Below are positions 1,071 to 13,237 of a stretch of 13,237 nt of DNA, piece after piece. The DNA is from Bacteroidales bacterium (GTDB taxonomy: Bacteria; Bacteroidota; Bacteroidia; Bacteroidales; UBA12481): contig JAGHDB010000391.1 in assembly GCA_021160155.1 (NCBI GenBank), positions 1-13,237 on the forward strand. The letters are read 5' to 3'. Each line of letters starts with the position of its first letter. The stretch's first letter is position 1. Both the position numbers and the translations under genes were made by a program. Below the pieces are notes generated by a model. That model ran no database searches, was not told the origin of the DNA, and was given only the letters and a program-made list of their open reading frames with translations.

Positions 1071-1952
1071 TTACGTACGCAAAACCTCTGCGCCGCTGAT
1101 GATCTCGATTATTTCACTGGTAATAGCTGCCTGACGTGCTTTATTGTATTCAATATTCAAATCATGCAGCATTTTGGTAGCATTATCGGTTGCCTGGTAC
1201 ATGGCGGTCATTCTGGCTCCGTGTTCCGCCGCCACCGAATCCAGTATGGTTTTATGCAGTTTCACCCGAAGGGCTTCGGGCACTAATGTGGTAATCAGAT
1301 ATTCCAATGTGGGTTCGAACAGGTAAAAAGGTATTTCCCGGTGAGATTCTTCTGCCAGCGGCAGTTCAACAGGCAAAAACTGTTCGTGGATGACTGCCTG
1401 GGTAGCTGCGTTTTTAAATTGATTATACACTAAATCCACACGGTCATACCGGCCATTACGGAATTGATTCATCAAGGTATCCGCTAATGTTCGTGTTTGT
1501 TCATATGATGAATCTTCCAACAGATGGTCAAACCGTTCCCATGTTCCGTATCCTTTTCCTTTCAATATTTCTCCCCCTTTTCTGCCGATCAGCAGCAGGT
1601 CCAGTTTTTTTGCAGACCATTGAGCCGGATACCGGTCATCGATTAATTCCTGAGCGGCACGCACAACATTAGCATTAAAACCGCCACAAAGACCTCTGTT
1701 TGCTGAAACCAGCACCAATAAAACTTTGCCGGGTTCGCGCTGTTCCGCATAGGGATTTTCAATGTTCGATTCCACGACTCCACTCAGACGAGCCAGGATA
1801 TCATTCAATTTATTGGCATACGGACGGATCTGTACAATGGCATTCTGGGCCTTTTTCAACTTTGCTGCTGATACCATTTTCATGGCATTGGTGATTTGTC
1901 TGGTCGATTTTACCGACGAGATTCTCTGACGTATCTCTTTAAGACTGGCCAT
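1071..1952 (-). CDS. atpG: F1Fo ATP synthase subunit gamma
   Basis: The 293-residue product is the rotating central stalk of F1, which couples c-ring rotation to catalysis in the alpha3beta3 head. The N-terminal helix carries the family signature (MASLKEIRQRISSVKSTRQI, then TNAMKMVSAAKL) that enters the alpha3beta3 cavity. The C-terminal helix carries the matching signature (YNKARQAAITSEIIEIISGA). The middle contains the Rossmann-like segment with SANRGLCGGFNANV at about residue 83. Length is normal for the family. The ATG at 1952 is the natural start because the signature begins with it; no Shine-Dalgarno sequence precedes it. The gene lies 21 bp downstream of atpA and 2 bp upstream of the TlpA-like gene. 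In many bacteria atpD follows here; in this genome it does not. Confidence 0.98.
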   Translation of the reverse strand: MASLKEIRQRISSVKSTRQITNAMKMVSAAKLKKAQNAIVQIRPYANKLNDILARLSGVVESNIENPYAEQREPGKVLLVLVSANRGLCGGFNANVVRAAQELIDDRYPAQWSAKKLDLLLIGRKGGEILKGKGYGTWERFDHLLEDSSYEQTRTLADTLMNQFRNGRYDRVDLVYNQFKNAATQAVIHEQFLPVELPLAEESHREIPFYLFEPTLEYLITTLVPEALRVKLHKTILDSVAAEHGARMTAMYQATDNATKMLHDLNIEYNKARQAAITSEIIEIISGAEVLRT

Positions 1953-1973
1953 AAATATTCAGCAGGTTTATTT

Positions 1974-3548
1974 TTAAAATTTCGCGGAGAGTTCTGCAGC
2001 TATTTTTATCAGTGTTTCCGAAGTTTTCTCTGTCAGAATACCTTCATTCAGCTCATCCAGTATCTTAACATATTTCAGGTGCAGCAGTTCAATAAGTTCT
2101 TTTTCAAAATCTTTCACTTTATCTATCGGGACATTCTGCAGCAAATCCTTGGTTCCGCAGAATAATATCGCAATCTGGTCACCAACCGGAACGGGTTGAT
2201 GCAGTCCCTGCTTCAGGATTTCGACATTACGGGCACCCTTACCCAGCACAGCCAGCGTAGCCGCATCCAGATCCGAACCAAATTTTGAAAAGGCTTCCAG
2301 TTCGCGGTATTGGGCCTGATCGATTTTCAATGTACCAGCCACTTTTTTCATAGCTTTGATCTGGGCGGCACCACCCACTCTTGATACCGAAATACCTACG
2401 TTGATAGCCGGTCGTATTCCACTGTTAAACAGGGCCGATTCAAGAAAAATCTGTCCATCCGTAATAGAAATCACATTAGTAGGAATATAGGCTGATACAT
2501 CTCCGGCCTGAGTTTCTATGATAGGCAGGGCCGTTAATGATCCTCCGCCTTTGACCATGGGTTTCAATGGTTCAGGCAGATCATTCATCTGTCTGGCAAC
2601 TTCATCACTCTCAATAATTTTGGCCGCTCTTTCGAGGAGTCGGGAGTGGAGGTAAAAAACATCCCCCGGATAGGCTTCTCTTCCGGGAGGGCGACGGAGC
2701 AACAGCGAAACTTCACGATAGGATACTGCCTGTTTTGACAGATCATCGTAAATAATCAATGCATCCCGTCCACTGTCGCGAAAGAACTCTCCGATGGCAG
2801 CACCTGCAAACGGTGCATAAAACTGTAACGCAGCCGGATCACTTGCATTGGCAGAAACAATGATGGTATAGGGGCTTGCGCCAAAATCTTCGAAGGTTTT
2901 CGCAATTTGTGCCACGGTAGATCCTTTTTGTCCTATAGCCACATAGATACAGTAAACTGGTTTGCCTTTTTCATAATTTTCACGCTGGTTGATAATAGTA
3001 TCCACTGCCAGTGCTGTTTTCCCGGTCTGACGGTCGCCAATAATCAACTCCCGCTGACCTCTTCCGATAGGGATCATGGCATCAATAGGTTTGATACCGG
3101 TTTGCAGGGGTTGGTTAACCGGTTGCCTGAAAATAACTCCGGGCGCCTTTCGTTCGAGGGGCAGATCGATTAATTCACCCTGTATCGGGCCTTTACCATC
3201 CAGCGGTTGACCAATTGTATTGATCACTCTGCCGAGCAGTCCTTCACCCACCGGTACCGAAGCGATCCGGTTGGTTCTTTTAACGGGATCGCCTTCGCGT
3301 ATTCCTTCTGAAGGACCAAAAAGTACGGCTCCCACGTTATCTTCTTCAAGGTTCAGCACCATACCAATCACTCCGTTATGGAACTCGACCAGTTCATTAG
3401 CCTGCACTTTATTCAATCCGTAAATGCGGGCAATTCCATCGCCGATCTGAAGAATTGTACCTACCTCTTCAAGCTTGGCATCCAACTGGATACCTTCTAA
3501 TTGCTGTTTAAGAATTCTGGTAATTTCAGCAGGTTTAATCGTTGACAT
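1974..3548 (-). CDS. atpA: F1Fo ATP synthase subunit alpha
   Basis: The 524-residue non-catalytic nucleotide-binding subunit of the F1 head alternates with beta. The beta-barrel domain is at about residues 1-95, with the usual start ..[13 protein letters not shown]. Walker A is GDRQTGKT (171-178) and the Walker B strand ALIIYDD is at about 263-269. The family signature [11 protein letters not shown] ends in Arg390, the arginine-finger residue that reaches into the catalytic site of beta. The segment before [14 protein letters not shown] (about residues 311-334) is longer than in E. coli, seemingly a lineage insertion. The C-terminal helical domain is complete. It starts at ATG 3548, 33 bp after atpH, without a visible Shine-Dalgarno sequence. 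Confidence 0.98.
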
Positions 3549-3581
3549 ATATCACTTAAGTATCTTCTAATGAAACATTCG

Positions 3582-4136
3582 TTAATTGTGTGGCAGAGAT
3601 CGTAATAAGTCCTGCCGGATTTTCTGCAGCCGGTCACTGATACTGACATCTAGCTGACGATCATCCATTCTTAAAATAAATCCGCCGATCAGATTTTCAT
3701 TAATGGTTTGTTGCAGTTCAACTTTTTTCTTCATCTCCTCTTCAATCCACTGAACAAGTTTGGCAACCAGGTTTTTGCGAAGCGGAATTACCGAGGTGAT
3801 CCGGGCTTCCACAATACCTTTTTCCTGTTTATACATACTCTCGTACATCCGGCAGGCATCTCCAAGAGCAGACTCTCTGCGATGAGCCGTCAGCAGTAAT
3901 AAAAAGTCCAGTGTAAGCGGTTGTATCTGATTCTTAAACAGCCGCGTCAGGAGTTTGGCTTTATCGTTTCCTTTCATCATGGGGGTATTGATCAACAGGT
4001 CGAATTCTGTCAAATCTGTCATCAGTTGAAGCAAATCAGACAAGTCGTTTCTGACTTTATCTTCGTTACCCTTTGACTTTGCCACGGCATACAGTGCTCT
4101 GGCATACCTGACTCCAATCCGGCTATCGGTTGCCAT
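3582..4136 (-). CDS. atpH: F1Fo ATP synthase subunit delta
   Basis: The 184-residue peripheral-stalk subunit caps F1 and binds the C-terminus of subunit b. The N-terminal six-helix domain opens with the typical RYARALYAVA (residues about 10-19). The C-terminal domain carries the family motif ENLIGGFILRMDDRQLDVSI followed by a final helix (about 147-184). Length is normal for delta. The start ATG at 4136 lies one base after the atpF stop (TGA-t-ATG), so translation is probably coupled to atpF. It sits between atpF and atpA as in most F-type operons. Confidence 0.96.
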   Translation of the reverse strand: MATDSRIGVRYARALYAVAKSKGNEDKVRNDLSDLLQLMTDLTEFDLLINTPMMKGNDKAKLLTRLFKNQIQPLTLDFLLLLTAHRRESALGDACRMYESMYKQEKGIVEARITSVIPLRKNLVAKLVQWIEEEMKKKVELQQTINENLIGGFILRMDDRQLDVSISDRLQKIRQDLLRSLPHN

Positions 4137-4137
4137 A

Positions 4138-4632
4138 TCAGTTCAATTTGATATCTTTCAGCATCTCCTGAATTAATGATTCGTGATCAGCAGCATTACT
4201 GAGTTCTTTGCGCAATACTTTTTCAGCAATCTGAATCGAGAGTTCAGAGATCTGTTTGCGAATATCAGACAAAGCGGATAACTTTTCATTCTCGATCTGT
4301 TTTCTTGCTTTCAGTACTACTTTTTCCGCTTCAAGAGCCGCCTTGTCGCGTGCTTCTTCAATCATACTTTCGCGCATTTCCCGTGCTTCGTCCAGCAAGG
4401 CATCACGTTCTTTGCGGGCCTGCTGCAATACCAGTTCGTTATCGGCCTGAAGTTTTGCCATTTCACCGCGTGCCACATCAGCAGCCTCCAAAGCTTCCCG
4501 GATGGATTGCTCACGATTCTTCAGGCTGTTCAGAATAGGTTTCCAGGCAAATTTCTTCAGCAGCATGAAAACCAGGCCAAAAGCCAGAACCATCCAGAAA
4601 ATTGTTCCGTAATCCGGTGTAACTAAACCCAT
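4138..4632 (-). CDS. atpF: F1Fo ATP synthase subunit b
   Basis: The 164-residue peripheral-stalk subunit b holds F1 stationary against subunit a. One N-terminal membrane helix (about residues 10-27, IFWMVLAFGLVFMLLKKF) is followed by the conserved KPILNSLKNRE region. A long charged, alanine-rich helix up to about residue 145 reads as the right-handed coiled coil of b. A C-terminal helix binds delta. No second b or b' gene is present, so a b homodimer is expected. It starts at ATG 4632, 9 bp after the atpE stop, and its stop is one base from the atpH start. Confidence 0.96.
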   Translation of the reverse strand: MGLVTPDYGTIFWMVLAFGLVFMLLKKFAWKPILNSLKNREQSIREALEAADVARGEMAKLQADNELVLQQARKERDALLDEAREMRESMIEEARDKAALEAEKVVLKARKQIENEKLSALSDIRKQISELSIQIAEKVLRKELSNAADHESLIQEMLKDIKLN

Positions 4633-4641
4633 TTCGGTTGT

Positions 4642-4917
<276 letters not shown>

Positions 4918-4930
4918 TTAAAAATGATTA

Positions 4931-6034
4931 CTAATGTTCTGCTTCTCTTGCCATCCCAAAATAGAGTGCCGAGAGGAGTGTAAATACGTATGCCTGGATA
5001 AAAGCCACCAGTATTTCCAGGATGGTCATGAAAATATAAAAAAGTACCGAGATCACCGACACTCCGTAACCTGCGATCCAGTTTATTTGCCCGAAAATAA
5101 AGATTAAAACAATGAAACTGAGTGCAATAAAATGCCCGGCCAGAATATTGGCAAAAAGCCGGATACAGAGCACCAACGGTTTGGTAAAAACACCCAGTAA
5201 TTCAATAAAGGGCATCAGCGGAACGGGAAATTTGAGCCACCAGGGTACACCTTCTTCATTATAAATATGTTTCCAGTAATGTTTGTCGGTGCTGAATGTG
5301 GTAATTAAAAAAGTGAAAAATGCCAGTACACCTGTTATGGTAATATTACCGGTAACATTAGCGCCTCCCGGCGGGACAGGAATAATCCCCAGGATATTAT
5401 TAAAGAGGATGAAAAAGAATATGGTCAGTAAAAAGGGCATGAACCGTTCGTACCGTTCTTTTCCGATTGAGGGAACAGCCACCTCATCACGGATAAAAAG
5501 TATAACCGGTTCCATCAGGGATTGAAGGCCTTTAGGCGCTTTCCGGGGGGCTTTCCGGTATTGTCTCCCGATCGATATGAAGATAATCAGTAACAGAATC
5601 AGGCTCATCATCATAGCGAAAACAGTTTTTGTAATCGAGAGGTCAACCGGAAGGGATTTGGAAGGATCTTCCTCACCATTCACATCAACTTCGACAATCT
5701 TTCCTTTATTGGGGCCCTCCTGAGCCACTGCAAAACCTTTATATGCTTTATGACCCTGATGAAATTTTGACGACCAGAAAACGACCAGCCCTCTCTCTTT
5801 TGTATAAAGAATAACCGGCAGCGGAATACTGATATGAGTTTCCCCTATGGTCATGATATGCCATTCATAAGAATCCATGACGTGCTCCATGATGAACACA
5901 CCCGGATCGAATTGTTCATGGCCTGTGTTTTCCTGAGCGGCTTGATGAATGGTATCCTTTGAGCAGGCAGGGTTTCCGGCTTTTGCGCCTAACGTACTAC
6001 TGATCAACAAACACCAAACTAACCATTTTCTCAT
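4931..6034 (-). CDS. atpB: F1Fo ATP synthase subunit a, Bacteroidota type with signal peptide and extracytoplasmic domain
   Basis: This is the stator subunit with the two proton half-channels next to the c-ring. I start it at ATG 6034 (367 residues). The frame is open to a TTG at 6061, but ATG 6034 begins a clear signal peptide (MRKWLVWCLLISSTLGAKAG). Residues about 20-130 form an extracytoplasmic domain, with the conserved-looking FIMEHVMDSYEWHI and a loop rich in His, Lys and aromatic residues. The membrane core follows (about 135-367). The essential arginine is Arg292 in LCIRLFANILAGH. The C-terminal helix ILEILVAFIQAYVFTLLSA is typical. At 367 residues it is far longer than E. coli subunit a (271), as is usual in Bacteroidota from memory. 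It follows the AtpI-like gene by 43 bp. Confidence 0.96.
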   Translation of the reverse strand: MRKWLVWCLLISSTLGAKAGNPACSKDTIHQAAQENTGHEQFDPGVFIMEHVMDSYEWHIMTIGETHISIPLPVILYTKERGLVVFWSSKFHQGHKAYKGFAVAQEGPNKGKIVEVDVNGEEDPSKSLPVDLSITKTVFAMMMSLILLLIIFISIGRQYRKAPRKAPKGLQSLMEPVILFIRDEVAVPSIGKERYERFMPFLLTIFFFILFNNILGIIPVPPGGANVTGNITITGVLAFFTFLITTFSTDKHYWKHIYNEEGVPWWLKFPVPLMPFIELLGVFTKPLVLCIRLFANILAGHFIALSFIVLIFIFGQINWIAGYGVSVISVLFYIFMTILEILVAFIQAYVFTLLSALYFGMAREAEH

Positions 6035-6058
6035 TCCAGATTCAGATTTTGAAATTAT

Positions 6059-6066
6059 CAAAGGTA
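6059..6066 (-). promoter_or_regulatory. Bacteroidota -7 box candidate before atpB (internal promoter)
   Basis: On the minus strand the bases read TACCTTTG, a full match to the Bacteroidota primary-sigma -7 consensus TAnnTTTG, about 25 nt before the atpB ATG. A T-run precedes it, but no clear -33 TTTG sits at the usual spacing. A transcript from here would have a leader of roughly 15-20 nt and could raise the structural ATP synthase subunits above atpZ and the AtpI-like protein. An 8-base match can arise by chance, so this is tentative. Confidence 0.3.
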
Positions 6067-7107: not shown

Positions 7108-8112
7108 CTAAACAACCTTGTCGGGATCGTAGGCCCAGGTAAGATACAGGGCGCCCCAGGTGTAACCTCCACCAAAGGCAGAAAGGATCAATTTGTCTCC
7201 CTTTTTCAGTTGTGATTCATAATCTCTCAGGCACAAAGGAATGGTGGCTGTAGTTGTATTACCGTATTTCTCAATGTTGATCATGACCTGGTCGCGACTG
7301 ATTCCCATACGGCGGGCTACTGCTTCAATGATTCTCAGATTAGCCTGGTGCGGAACCAGCCAGGTAAGGTCTTCCGGTGTCAGATGATGTTTTTTCATCA
7401 TTTCAACCGAGACATCAGCCATTTTCTGAACAGCTACTTTAAATACGATCTGGCCTTCCTGATAGATAAAATGCTCCCGGGCATCAACCGTTTCATGTGA
7501 AGCAGGTCTGACCGAACCGCCTGCTTTCAGGTAGAGGTGATGTCGGCCTGCTCCATCCACACCCAGAATATGATCCTGAATACCATACTCTTCGCTGGGT
7601 TCAAGCAGTACCACTCCTGAGGCATCTCCGAAAAGCGGACAGGTAGACCGGTCGGTATAGTCAGTAATGGCTGACATTTTATCAGCTCCCACACAAATCA
7701 CTTTTTTAGCTGTTCCGGTTTCAATGAATTTTGAAGCTACGGTCAACATAAAAATAAACCCGGAGCAGGCTGCGGAGATATCAAAACTGTAAGCATTTTT
7801 AACGCCTACTTTATCACTGATGATGTTTGCTGTAGCCGGGAAATCATGATCGTGTGTAGCAGAAGCGCATATTAATAAATCTACTTCATCCGGACTGGTA
7901 CCTGTTTTTTCAAGTAATTTTTTTACCGCCGGAACCGCCAGGTCAGAACTCCCTTTTCCGGGTTCTCTCAATATATGACGTTCCTTAATACCGGTCCGGG
8001 TTACAATCCATTCATCCGTTGTATCTACCATCTTTTCAAGATCGGCATTTGTCAATACATCTGCCGGAACATAAGCTTCAACTCCCGTAATCGCCGCAAA
8101 AACTTTTTTCAT
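7108..8112 (-). CDS. fabH: 3-oxoacyl-ACP synthase III (KAS III)
   Basis: The 334-residue thiolase-fold enzyme condenses an acyl-CoA starter with malonyl-ACP, the first step of fatty acid elongation. The catalytic triad is visible: Cys116 in DISAACSGF, His255 in VPHQANLRI and Asn285 in YGNTTTATIP. The N-terminal TTDEWIVTRTGIKERH and C-terminal SAFGGGYTWGALYL are also diagnostic. Starter choice (acetyl or branched acyl-CoA) cannot be read from the sequence alone. The start codon shares one base with the plsX stop (TAATG), so translation is coupled. The order rpmF-plsX-fabH is widely conserved. Confidence 0.97.
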   Translation of the reverse strand: MKKVFAAITGVEAYVPADVLTNADLEKMVDTTDEWIVTRTGIKERHILREPGKGSSDLAVPAVKKLLEKTGTSPDEVDLLICASATHDHDFPATANIISDKVGVKNAYSFDISAACSGFIFMLTVASKFIETGTAKKVICVGADKMSAITDYTDRSTCPLFGDASGVVLLEPSEEYGIQDHILGVDGAGRHHLYLKAGGSVRPASHETVDAREHFIYQEGQIVFKVAVQKMADVSVEMMKKHHLTPEDLTWLVPHQANLRIIEAVARRMGISRDQVMINIEKYGNTTTATIPLCLRDYESQLKKGDKLILSAFGGGYTWGALYLTWAYDPDKVV

Positions 8113-9050
8113 TATTCAAACGCTTTAATCATTTTTTTTATTAAACCCGACAAGATGATCTCCTGGTTTTTCAGAATCATATTCTTTATTGCCACAGAAG
8201 ATGACATTCCATGCCCGATCAATACCGGCGAGCCAATCCCGAGAATCGGAGTGCCGCCGAAATTTTCATAATTAAACTTTTCAAAAAACGGATGAGAAAT
8301 ATTGATCTTCCTCATTAATCCGTAAAACGATTCTGTCTGCTTTAATATTACATTTCCTGAAAAGCCGTCACACACCACTACATCGGCACGATCCCCGAAA
8401 AGTTCATTGCCCTCCACATTACCAATAAAAAGGTAATCAGGGCTATCCTGCATGACCTGAAATGTTGATTTAGTCAGCAGGTTGCCTTTTTCCGGTTCAG
8501 AACCAATGTTTAATAATCCTACACGGGGGTTTTCTACACCGTGTACATACCGGGCAAAAAGAGCTCCCATAAAACCAAACTGATACAGTACATCAGGCCG
8601 TACGTCAGGATTGAGGCCCACATCCAAAAGCAGTGTGTAATCATTTTCTCCTTTCGGAATAGAAACTGAAATTGAAGGACGGATAACTCCGGGGATTGAT
8701 TTGATGGTAAACATGGCTCCGGCCAGCATCGCACCCGTATTACCGGCACTGCAGAAACCATCCAGTTCATTGTGAGAAAGCATCTCGAACCCCAGGTACA
8801 TGCTGGATTTTTTCTTGACCGAAAAAGCCCTGACCGGATGGTCATTCATACTGATAGTCTCTTCTGCATGAATTATGGTGAAACGGTCAGAATCAAACGA
8901 GAGTGTTTGACACTCCTTCAAAATATTATCTTTTTCACCGATCAGAACCAGTTCGCAATCAGGGGGCAGAATTTCCCTGGCCAGGACTGCTCCTTTTACC
9001 GTGGCTTTGGGAGCATGGTCACCACCCATTATATCCAATCCGATTCTCAT
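8112..9050 (-). CDS. plsX: Phosphate acyltransferase PlsX
   Basis: The 312-residue enzyme converts acyl-ACP and phosphate to acyl-phosphate, the acyl donor for PlsY in phospholipid synthesis. It opens with the family signature MRIGLDIMGGDHAP. Other PlsX hallmarks are GFCSAGNTGAMLAGA (about residues 97-111), LLNIGSEPEKGN and IGNVEGNELFGDRADVVVCD followed by GFSGNV. It is slightly shorter than many family members (about 330-350) but looks complete at both ends. It sits 29 bp after rpmF and shares one base with fabH. It is a peripheral membrane enzyme in other bacteria. Confidence 0.96.
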   Translation of the reverse strand: MRIGLDIMGGDHAPKATVKGAVLAREILPPDCELVLIGEKDNILKECQTLSFDSDRFTIIHAEETISMNDHPVRAFSVKKKSSMYLGFEMLSHNELDGFCSAGNTGAMLAGAMFTIKSIPGVIRPSISVSIPKGENDYTLLLDVGLNPDVRPDVLYQFGFMGALFARYVHGVENPRVGLLNIGSEPEKGNLLTKSTFQVMQDSPDYLFIGNVEGNELFGDRADVVVCDGFSGNVILKQTESFYGLMRKINISHPFFEKFNYENFGGTPILGIGSPVLIGHGMSSSVAIKNMILKNQEIILSGLIKKMIKAFE

Positions 9051-10729: not shown

Positions 10730-11758
10730 TTATTTAAATAATTTATCCAGTGTCCGTATTAACTGTGCCGCATAATTTTCAGGCTTTGTTTTTCTCAGAT
10801 CCAGTTCATATACTGTTTTCGGGTCTCTCAGTCGGAGGCTGTGTGTATATTTTTGATCATAATAAACCAGCAGCATTCTGGCAACTTGTTCTAAATCATT
10901 TCTTTTCAATGCTTCCAGTATTTTTTTTGTGGTTTCTCCTCCCAGTCGTTTCCTGATCCGTTCAATAGAAATTGCCAGTTCATTTTCAGCAGAGTTGCCG
11001 TATTCTTCAATCAGAATCCGTATTCTGAGTTCATCCGGTACCCGTATCAGAATCAGTGGGGCGTTGCTTTTTGCCTGATAAAAAGTATCCGGTATGAAAA
11101 TCCGGCCGATTTGACGGCTTTCATCTTCGATCCAGACCGGCAATGAAGAATTCAGAGCGACCAGCCGGCCGTAGAGTTCATTTTCAAACTGTTCATTGGT
11201 AGGTTGCGTGTCCATTCCGATCCAGCCGAAAACCGAGCCTTTATGATTTGCCAGTCCTTCAAGATCAATTACCTGTTGTCCGGCTTCTTTCAATTGCTTC
11301 AACCACCGCGATTTGCCGCTTCCGGTCAACCCTCCCAGCACAACCAGCGAGCCGGGATTTCCGAGTTGCTTTCGGATATATCTCCGGTAGGCCTGATATC
11401 CTCCTTTTAACAAACTTACCTGATAACCGGCAGTTTCAAAGAGCCAACCCATAGATTCACTTCTCATACCACCTCTCCAGCAGTGAACCAAAACCGGGCC
11501 GTGGGGTATTACAGACTCCAGTTTTTCAAGATACCTGATCATTTTCGGGCCCACCATCTCCAGTCCTTTACGAATAGCCGTATCTCTCCCCCGCTGTTTA
11601 TAAAGAGTGCCAACTTCAGCCCGTTCGTTGTTTTCAAAAAGTGAAATATTGACAGCCCCGGGTATATGGCCCCGGGAAAATTCGGCAGGTGTTCTGACAT
11701 CGACCACCGGTAATTGTGCCGCTTCTTTTAGAAAATTTTCCGGGTCAAGTTGATTCAT
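10730..11758 (-). CDS. mnmH: tRNA 2-selenouridine synthase (MnmH/SelU)
   Basis: The 342-residue enzyme replaces sulfur with selenium in 2-thiouridine at the wobble position of tRNAs for Lys, Glu and Gln. It uses selenophosphate and passes through a geranylated intermediate. Residues about 1-127 are a rhodanese domain starting VVDVRTPAEFSRGHIPGAVN, with catalytic Cys93 in HCWRGGMRS, the signature of this family. Residues about 135-342 are a P-loop domain with Walker A GGLTGSGKS (142-150). Length is close to the E. coli enzyme (364). The ATG at 11758 lies 5 bp after the stop of the SelD fusion, so its selenophosphate source is encoded in the same operon. Confidence 0.95.
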   Translation of the reverse strand: MNQLDPENFLKEAAQLPVVDVRTPAEFSRGHIPGAVNISLFENNERAEVGTLYKQRGRDTAIRKGLEMVGPKMIRYLEKLESVIPHGPVLVHCWRGGMRSESMGWLFETAGYQVSLLKGGYQAYRRYIRKQLGNPGSLVVLGGLTGSGKSRWLKQLKEAGQQVIDLEGLANHKGSVFGWIGMDTQPTNEQFENELYGRLVALNSSLPVWIEDESRQIGRIFIPDTFYQAKSNAPLILIRVPDELRIRILIEEYGNSAENELAISIERIRKRLGGETTKKILEALKRNDLEQVARMLLVYYDQKYTHSLRLRDPKTVYELDLRKTKPENYAAQLIRTLDKLFK

Positions 11759-11763
11759 AGCGG

Positions 11764-13237
11764 TTATTCCCGTTCGGATGCAGCAATAGTTATTTGTCCG
11801 GTACCGGTTTCAGTAAAACGGCCAATAGATGCTACTTCCGTGTTTCCTGCTGCTTTCATACGTTTGATATATAAATCCGCTTCTTTCCCGGGGAGAGCAA
11901 TCAGTAAACCTCCGGAGGTTTGTGCATCACAAAGCATGGTCATCATGTTATCCGGCACATTTTGCGCCTCATTAATCCATGGTTTGAGGTATTCGATATT
12001 GCTTTTGGTTCCGCCGGGGATGATTCCAGAACCAATTAACTCCATCAATCCGGTAAGCAGCGGCACCTGTTGCGGGTCAATTGTCACATTCACGCGGCTG
12101 CTTCGTGACATTTCCAGCAGATGTCCCAACAACCCGAAACCGGTCACATCGGTACAGGCGTGCGGGGTAAAATCGAACAGCATTTCAGCTGCATTACGGT
12201 TCAACCGGCTCATGACCTCTATCAGGCGTTTTTGTTGATCCGTTGTCAGTATTCCTCTTTTGAGTGCGGTACTCATGACACCGGTTCCTACCGGTTTGGT
12301 TAAGATAACCTGATCACCCGGGCGGGCACCCCTGTTACTCCAGATCTTTTGAGGATGAACTTCACCCGTTACCACCATACCGTATTTAGGTTCGGTATCT
12401 TCGATGGTATGTCCGCCCAACACAGTAATTCCGGCTTCTCTGGCTTTATCATGTGCTCCCCTGAGGATCTCTTTCAACACCGAAAGATCCAGTCGTTTTA
12501 CCGGAAACCCGACGATATTCAGTGCAAATAGCGGTCGGGCCCCCATTGCATAGATATCGCTCAGGGCGTTACTAGCCGCGATAGCCCCGAAATGATAGGG
12601 ATCATCCACAATCGGTGTAAAAAAATCAACGGTTTTCACCAGGGCCAGATCATCACGAATTTTAAAAACCGCAGCATCGTCAGCGGTTTCAGGACCGATA
12701 AGAATGCGCGGATCATCTCCTGCGGGCAAATCCCGCAACACCTGCTCCAAGTCCTGCGGTCGCAGTTTACAGGCACATCCCAGACCGTGTGTAAAGTGTG
12801 TCAATTGAACAACTTCAACCCCGGACGGTTTTTCCCCTGAATCTCCCGCCAGGGTTTTAACAGCCTTCACGATCATACCGGTTGCTTTATCCACCTCTTC
12901 ACGGGTGGTCATTTTACCCAGGGAGAACCTGACCGTCCCCATGGCAAATTCATCTTCAATTTGCATAGCCTGTAACACTGAAGAAGCGGTTACCTGATCG
13001 GCATGACAGGCGGCACCTGCCGAGGCAGCGAGCTGTTCCATGCTCCCCAGAAGAGTTTGTGCCTCGATGCCCGGGAAAGAGATACTCAGGGTATTGGGCA
13101 GCCGGTTTTCAGGATGTCCGTTAACCACGGCATCGGGTAATTTTTCCAGCAGTACAGATTGCAGGCGGTCTCTTAATGTTTTCATTCGCTCTGCATTTAT
13201 TTCAATCTGTTCACCGGCTACTTCACAGGCTTTACCC
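11764..13237 (-). CDS. selD: Selenocysteine lyase/cysteine desulfurase-SelD fusion, partial (N-terminus beyond right edge)
   Basis: The open frame runs to the window edge, so the ATG at 13185 is only the first internal Met; 17 more codons before it (ACEVAGEQIEINAER) also belong to the desulfurase. Numbering from that Met, residues 1-111 are the C-terminal small domain of a class V aminotransferase, with HPENRLPNTLSISFPG and catalytic Cys60 in SAGAACHADQ. This GAACH form recalls mammalian selenocysteine lyase more than IscS. After a linker of about 10 residues comes a full SelD (123-473), which makes selenophosphate from selenide and ATP. It has nucleophile Cys137 and Lys140 in HGLGCACK, likely metal ligands Asp170, Asp210 and Asp346, GGHTIEDTEP, DVTGFGLLGH and CDAQTSGGLL. 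The nucleophile codon is TGT, not TGA, so it is Cys and not selenocysteine. mnmH follows 5 bp later. Confidence 0.93.
   Translation of the reverse strand, partial: GKACEVAGEQIEINAERMKTLRDRLQSVLLEKLPDAVVNGHPENRLPNTLSISFPGIEAQTLLGSMEQLAASAGAACHADQVTASSVLQAMQIEDEFAMGTVRFSLGKMTTREEVDKATGMIVKAVKTLAGDSGEKPSGVEVVQLTHFTHGLGCACKLRPQDLEQVLRDLPAGDDPRILIGPETADDAAVFKIRDDLALVKTVDFFTPIVDDPYHFGAIAASNALSDIYAMGARPLFALNIVGFPVKRLDLSVLKEILRGAHDKAREAGITVLGGHTIEDTEPKYGMVVTGEVHPQKIWSNRGARPGDQVILTKPVGTGVMSTALKRGILTTDQQKRLIEVMSRLNRNAAEMLFDFTPHACTDVTGFGLLGHLLEMSRSSRVNVTIDPQQVPLLTGLMELIGSGIIPGGTKSNIEYLKPWINEAQNVPDNMMTMLCDAQTSGGLLIALPGKEADLYIKRMKAAGNTEVASIGRFTETGTGQITIAASERE

Follow-up and report, generated by a model that had tools for sequence, protein, structure and literature searches.

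Chains in which a NifS-like desulfurase and the selenophosphate synthetase SelD share one polypeptide are already in print, for Geobacter in 2008, for Caldithrix and Spironucleus in 2014 and in Mariotti 2015, according to the available excerpts of PMC2398784, PMC4561486 and PMC3916229, which agrees with the mention of such fusions in a few bacteria by the first-pass annotation. As excerpted, PMC2398784 gives a fusion in Geobacter sp. FRC-32 whose SelD reads CxxU, PMC4561486 gives two prokaryotic and two protist cases with NifS at the N-terminus, and PMC3916229 gives a Spironucleus fusion in which, by its wording, the NifS-like protein is C-terminal. The domains of these proteins (NifS-SelD or NifS-SPS, of Geobacter sp. 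FRC-32, Caldithrix abyssi, Spironucleus, Acanthamoeba and Naegleria) are joined in one chain, as are those of the fusion described here. However, the SelD of Geobacter FRC-32 has selenocysteine where ours has cysteine, and the fusion genomes of PMC4561486 have the Sec machinery, whereas in the genome studied here the trait seen is that of selenouridine, and SelA gave no match. SelD also has an N-terminal partner in the NADH dehydrogenase-like-SelD fusions (PMC2398784, PMC4561486), where that partner is an FAD-containing oxidoreductase and not a PLP desulfurase. The SelD of E. coli, with its nucleophile numbered Cys17 (PMC3266270), is free-standing, unlike the SelD described here, and its selenium can be supplied by separate NifS-like enzymes (PMC4561486, citing Lacourciere 2000); ybbB often shares an operon with selD (PMC2432076). 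In the excerpts of open-licence literature that were searched, we found no description of an assay of the fusion, of a selenouridine-only host or of an MnmH-SelD fusion; thus the fusion type is already known, while the selenouridine trait of its host appears to be new to that literature.

The window analysed here, a stretch of 13,237 nucleotides that makes up the entire contig C210 of a Bacteroidales assembly (411 contigs, 81.6% complete, 1.5% contaminated), carries on its minus strand the C-terminal two thirds of a nifS-selD fusion gene (11764..13236; 490 codons plus the stop), as an uninterrupted frame of 490 residues that is open at the right edge of the window. By profile matches and alignments, residues 1-129 of this frame (12850..13236) are the C-terminal lobe of a NifS-like desulfurase, i.e. 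the last third of the NifS/IscS models, and alignment to the Cys loop of Nfs1 places the catalytic cysteine codon at 13006..13008, in the motif SAGAACH. An inter-domain linker of about 12 residues (12814..12849, its boundary being approximate) leads to the SelD (selenide, water dikinase) domain at 11767..12813. In the profile search residues 142-484 match SelD over its length, and the model TIGR00476 scores 393.1 bits, above its curated cut-off of 125, over model positions 2-309 of 311 and residues 145-451. The claim of the first-pass annotation that a NifS-type enzyme and a full-length SelD share a single uninterrupted frame therefore stands, and the distance between the desulfurase cysteine and the SelD nucleophile, put there at about 77 residues, is 77 by count. 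Residues 143-480 were aligned to 3u0o, an entry labelled selenide, water dikinase and presumably E. coli SelD. The nucleophile codon (12775..12777, motif GCACK) aligns with the first Cys of GCGCK in 3u0o, presumably E. coli Cys17, and this Cys, the Lys of the same motif (12766..12768) and the motifs DDAAV, DFF and TDVTGFG are identical in the alignment, which agrees with the earlier statement that the key residues of SelD are present; which of the motifs are catalytic we take from the SelD literature. Also on the minus strand, mnmH (selU/ybbB), for tRNA 2-selenouridine synthase, occupies 10730..11758 and begins 5 bases beyond the stop codon of the fusion, and the reactions of E. coli SelD and MnmH/YbbB would be expected here as well. 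We consider it likely that the fusion is a two-domain selenium-supply enzyme feeding MnmH, with activities and substrate as predicted below. Scanned against Rfam with its gathering scores as thresholds, the window gave no match.

The 5' third of the gene is to be sought on another contig. Among the 12 class-V aminotransferase matches in this genome, the one in the window is a C-terminal part (model positions 275-370) and one on contig C96 is an N-terminal part (positions 1-258), and both run off their contigs. Two further matches at contig ends, on C83 (positions 2-345) and C113 (positions 39-122), belong, by eye, to proteins of other families. The N-half on C96 has 248 residues, is 67-73% identical to eight fused relatives and ends at base 1 of C96. 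When the two halves were compared with these relatives separately and unjoined, the C96 half stopped at relative residue 246-249 and the window half started at 247-250, which is the next residue in 8 of 8 cases. The gene directly upstream of the N-half is rsgA, as it is upstream of the whole fusion in L012, the only one among the 27 loci searched that has rsgA beside the fusion, many of these stretches ending near the gene. We infer from these sequences that the C96 and C210 halves are probably one gene, whose desulfurase would be intact, with the PLP lysine in the C96 half (motif AGHKLYGP) and the catalytic Cys in the window. Of the checks proposed earlier, the PLP lysine is thus accounted for, and the sequence to the right of the window was recovered as far as a probable N-half on a second contig.

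The few lineages for which the excerpted literature names the fusion are far outnumbered by those in which it is found. Among the best 120 of 7997 scored database proteins, i.e. 119 others, all 119 carry PF00266, PF00586 and PF02769 and are mostly 730-750 residues long. A search of GTDB contigs, taken to the best 80 of at least 589 stretches, gave 22 loci (L012-L033) that span the entire fusion with identities of 52-69%, and in 22 of 22 the fusion frame has no stops and the SelD loop has Cys (GCACK), not Sec. Most of them are metagenome bins, titled Bacteroidetes, Eisenbacteria, Zixiibacteriota, Phycisphaerales, Calditrichaceae, Ignavibacteriaceae, Chloroflexi/Anaerolineae, Neomarinimicrobiota, Deltaproteobacteria, Actinomycetota and Caldisericaceae, so that the taxonomic range, another of the checks proposed, takes in at least 22 loci across many named phyla among those best 80 stretches. 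When 395 genomes were drawn evenly from its own phylum, SelD was found in 66 (E<=1e-60) and the fusion in two, this one and G387 (E<=1e-140); with many phyla named among the loci, the fusion is thus infrequent in its own phylum and broadly spread beyond it. The genome of L032 (G021) has two SelD genes, on C51 and C42: the fused one is of the Cys type, while the other stands free and contains an in-frame TGA, which is probably Sec. A distant (33%) NifS/SelD-like match at L080:8001-10382 has three stops and motifs unlike those of the fusion family.

The neighbours of the fusion and the selenium traits of its hosts both bear on its use. Besides the gene pair described here, with its 5-base gap, mnmH adjoins the fusion in L019, L022 and L030, which makes 3 of the 27 loci examined, with several stretches stopping close to the gene, and selB adjoins it in L024. 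Among the 22 named loci, those titled Bacteroidetes are L012, L015, L016, L017, L019, L022, L026, L027, L029 and L030, with Saprospiraceae and Lentimicrobium placed in that phylum by our assumption. SelU was above cut-off in 10 of 10 of these Bacteroidetes genomes versus 0 of 12 others (Fisher p = 1.5e-6, with phylum and trait confounded), and SelA in 1 of 10 (Lentimicrobium, L022) versus 9 of 12; L023, L028 and L033 had neither above cut-off. Where the fusion was unclean (L036, L070, L075 and L080), SelU was above cut-off in 0 of 4 genomes and SelA in 3 of 4. The genome studied here has one SelD above cut-off, and a search for SelA in this 82%-complete assembly gave no match, such absence not being proof. 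Since the Bacteroidetes fusions go with selenouridine and not with selenocysteine, one supply module seems to serve the host's own use, i.e. the fusion seems to feed whichever selenium use the host has, which here seems to be that in tRNA. The Bacteroidetes are described in the excerpts of PMC5322559 as being without the Sec trait, many of them with selenouridine use; the genome of L022 (Lentimicrobium sp.), with both SelA and SelU above cut-off, goes against that description.

The two domains behaved differently in quick trees. The SelD tree comprised 35 fused and 77 unfused domains; the short L036 was dropped, L080 entered as unfused, and L099 and L100, which are MnmH-SelD fusions, were labelled unfused. 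The fused SelD domains formed one group that included a single unfused member, L035 (100% SH-aLRT). One clade for the 35 fused domains was not rejected (p 0.75), the tree constrained to hold them together scoring 13.7 log units above the free tree, and a distant group of their own was formed by the 20 SelD loci that scored best in the Bacteroidota draw (100% SH-aLRT). The SelD of L035 (1534-2640), a member of the fused clade, lies after nth (endonuclease III), the same gene that precedes the fusion in L027, and so resembles a former fusion whose desulfurase has been lost. For the desulfurase tree, of 113 rows, 13 of the 119 free-standing database proteins were removed because they were short or truncated fusions; 38 of the remaining 106 entered it, together with 6 of 27 IscS-like loci, seven further loci being excluded by name. 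In this quick tree the fused desulfurases were split from E. coli IscS and the six IscS-like loci with 98% SH-aLRT, the separation that the first-pass annotation had proposed to look for, and were mixed among their free-standing near relatives; a single clade of fused desulfurases was rejected (p-AU 6e-32). The two domains have therefore parted or been paired anew many times, and this speaks against a tether that the enzyme could not do without. Read together, the two trees would fit a single ancient fusion that was later split or swapped repeatedly.

The idea that the desulfurase clade accompanies SelD was examined in two phyla and rejected. In the own phylum of 395 genomes, the three desulfurase matches of at least 57% identity (G000, G387 and G371) were all in SelD-positive genomes, versus 66 of 395 overall, but G000 and G387 are fusions themselves and only G371 is informative, its enzyme ending SPGSACN and not GAACH. 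In the phylum of G021, where the 31 best-scoring genomes were picked by eye and one proved to hold G021's own fusion, the free-standing clade showed no enrichment, with SelD in 25 of 30 genomes versus 322 of 365 overall. Those of the 30 without detected SelD were G656, G582, G763, G707 and G774, and the desulfurase of four of them (G656, G582, G763 and G774) reads [GS]AACH, 29 of the 30 loci having been examined.

The joined frame could in principle be an assembly or frame artefact of two genes, and the window frame is indeed cut by a contig end; but the junction lies within the window in a single frame and recurs in the 119 listed proteins and the 22 loci, so that we give this explanation almost no credence. 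We also think it improbable that the N-terminal domain is a selenocysteine-specific lyase of the animal type fused to SelD. The human and rat lyases (3gzc, 3a9x) share with it the PLP fold and a His after the catalytic Cys, and GAACH is found in 22 of 22 named fusions and in 107 of the 119 listed database fusions (12 unparsed). From this motif the first-pass annotation had suggested selenium-specific chemistry, which is not supported. In the excerpts of PMC3266270 and its primer, the specificity of the human lyase is decided by Asp146, right after 'EH'; changing it is both necessary and sufficient for cysteine activity, H389T or V256S without that change gives none, and the His after the catalytic Cys, though present in the human enzyme, is insufficient for Sec specificity. 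In the C96 half the residue after EH is Pro, and Pro, Ala and His stand at the equivalents of human 146, 256 and 389 in 22 of 22 named fusion loci, so that both Asp146 and Val256 are replaced. The same three residues were found in 113, 113 and 107 of the 119 listed database fusions, the remainder being unparsed (6 in the case of Pro). GAACH is also usual in free-standing near relatives, of which 118 of 119 have Pro, 119 Ala, 101 AACH and 6 SACH, with 11 unparsed, in a set that still contained 13 fragments or truncated fusions. The Pro/Ala/His triad, being common to these free-standing relatives, marks a clade near NifS and IscS and not selenium use. The N-half scores 185-188 bits against selenocysteine lyase, lower than the 257-265 bits against E. 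coli IscS and Nfs1, although M. tuberculosis IscS, at 178 bits, falls below the lyase. The domain differs from housekeeping IscS as well, with Pro/Ala/GAACH in place of the Lys after EH found in 20 and the GSACT/S found in 22 of the 27 IscS-like loci of its own phylum. Its best desulfurase model is the NifS equivalog TIGR03402 (cut-off 530.75 bits), whose threshold was not reached by the full-length relatives P0002 (478.6) and P0108 (489.7) or by the C96 half alone (354.7).

A stronger competitor, which we still regard as unlikely, is that the desulfurase is a general donor of cysteine sulfur for thiolation or Fe-S work, tied to SelD by co-expression only, with selenide diffusing between the two. 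The Pro at the specificity site and the closeness to IscS/Nfs1 would suit such an enzyme, as would the members of the free-standing clade in genomes without detected SelD and the intermixing of fused and free desulfurase domains in the tree. But the fused SelDs fit one clade and are found in many named phyla, and the general role is already filled here, where adjacent SufD and SufS, both above cut-offs, cover the general sulfur supply, so that the fused desulfurase is free to specialise. The mnmH neighbour, moreover, links the desulfurase to selenium, and so does a triple fusion, P0273, a single sequence from one JGI contig of 4655 bases, in which MnmH (15-320), a NifS-like domain (348-728) and SelD (773-1107) follow one another in a chain of 1115 residues that is predicted to carry out every step between selenocysteine and the selenouridine of tRNA.

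As a selenium-supply enzyme, the fusion would work as follows. The N-terminal PLP desulfurase would move selenium from selenocysteine to its loop cysteine, probably also accepting sulfur from cysteine; the C-terminal SelD would use ATP to convert that selenium to selenophosphate; and MnmH, encoded 5 bases downstream, would use the selenophosphate to turn 2-thiouridine into 2-selenouridine in tRNA. With less weight, we infer a direct hand-over between the active sites, in which selenium would pass from loop to loop and not leave as free selenide. In the AlphaFold model of the relative P0002 (mean pLDDT 87.6) four segments fall under 50, namely residues 227-233, 322-328 (the desulfurase Cys loop), 378-388 (the same region as the linker of the window protein) and 399-406 (the SelD Cys loop). 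Low pLDDT is no proof of motion; if the loops are mobile, they and the short linker would fit a cysteine-to-cysteine hand-over. In a PDB fold search, Nfs1, IscS, NifS and selenocysteine lyase, all matching the first domain, were among the 50 matches listed. Known structures of desulfurases and of SelD are dimeric, so the hand-over could also run between chains. Direct delivery from lyase to synthetase has been proposed (PMC3266270), and their contact in trans demonstrated (PMC7595633), in the excerpts of these papers. A natural tether makes the movement of toxic and scarce selenide between enzymes testable in a single protein. Going further, one may tentatively imagine that in the Bacteroidota desulfurase, selenophosphate synthetase and selenouridine synthase act as one assembly that carries selenium from selenocysteine to the wobble base of tRNA and releases neither free selenide nor free selenophosphate, with the window as a two-plus-one form, P0273 as a three-in-one form and the MnmH-SelD chains (P0241-P0272) as another solution; we hold this to be possible, with the odds against it.

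The MnmH-SelD arrangement was seen at L099:1396-3450 and L100:1396-3450 (both on the minus strand), from two genomes of one genus, where MnmH is fused to the N-terminus of SelD in one frame of 684 residues. It is also present in 32 listed database proteins (P0241-P0272, 43-91% identity). In the three that were tested (L099, P0266 and P0272) the MnmH and SelD domains were both above cut-off; P0272, which is without the start of SelD, has a eukaryote as its source, possibly through contamination. Elsewhere in the window the genes look ordinary: judged by their translations, those for ATP synthase lie at about 1071-6061 and those for FabH and PlsX at 7108-9050.
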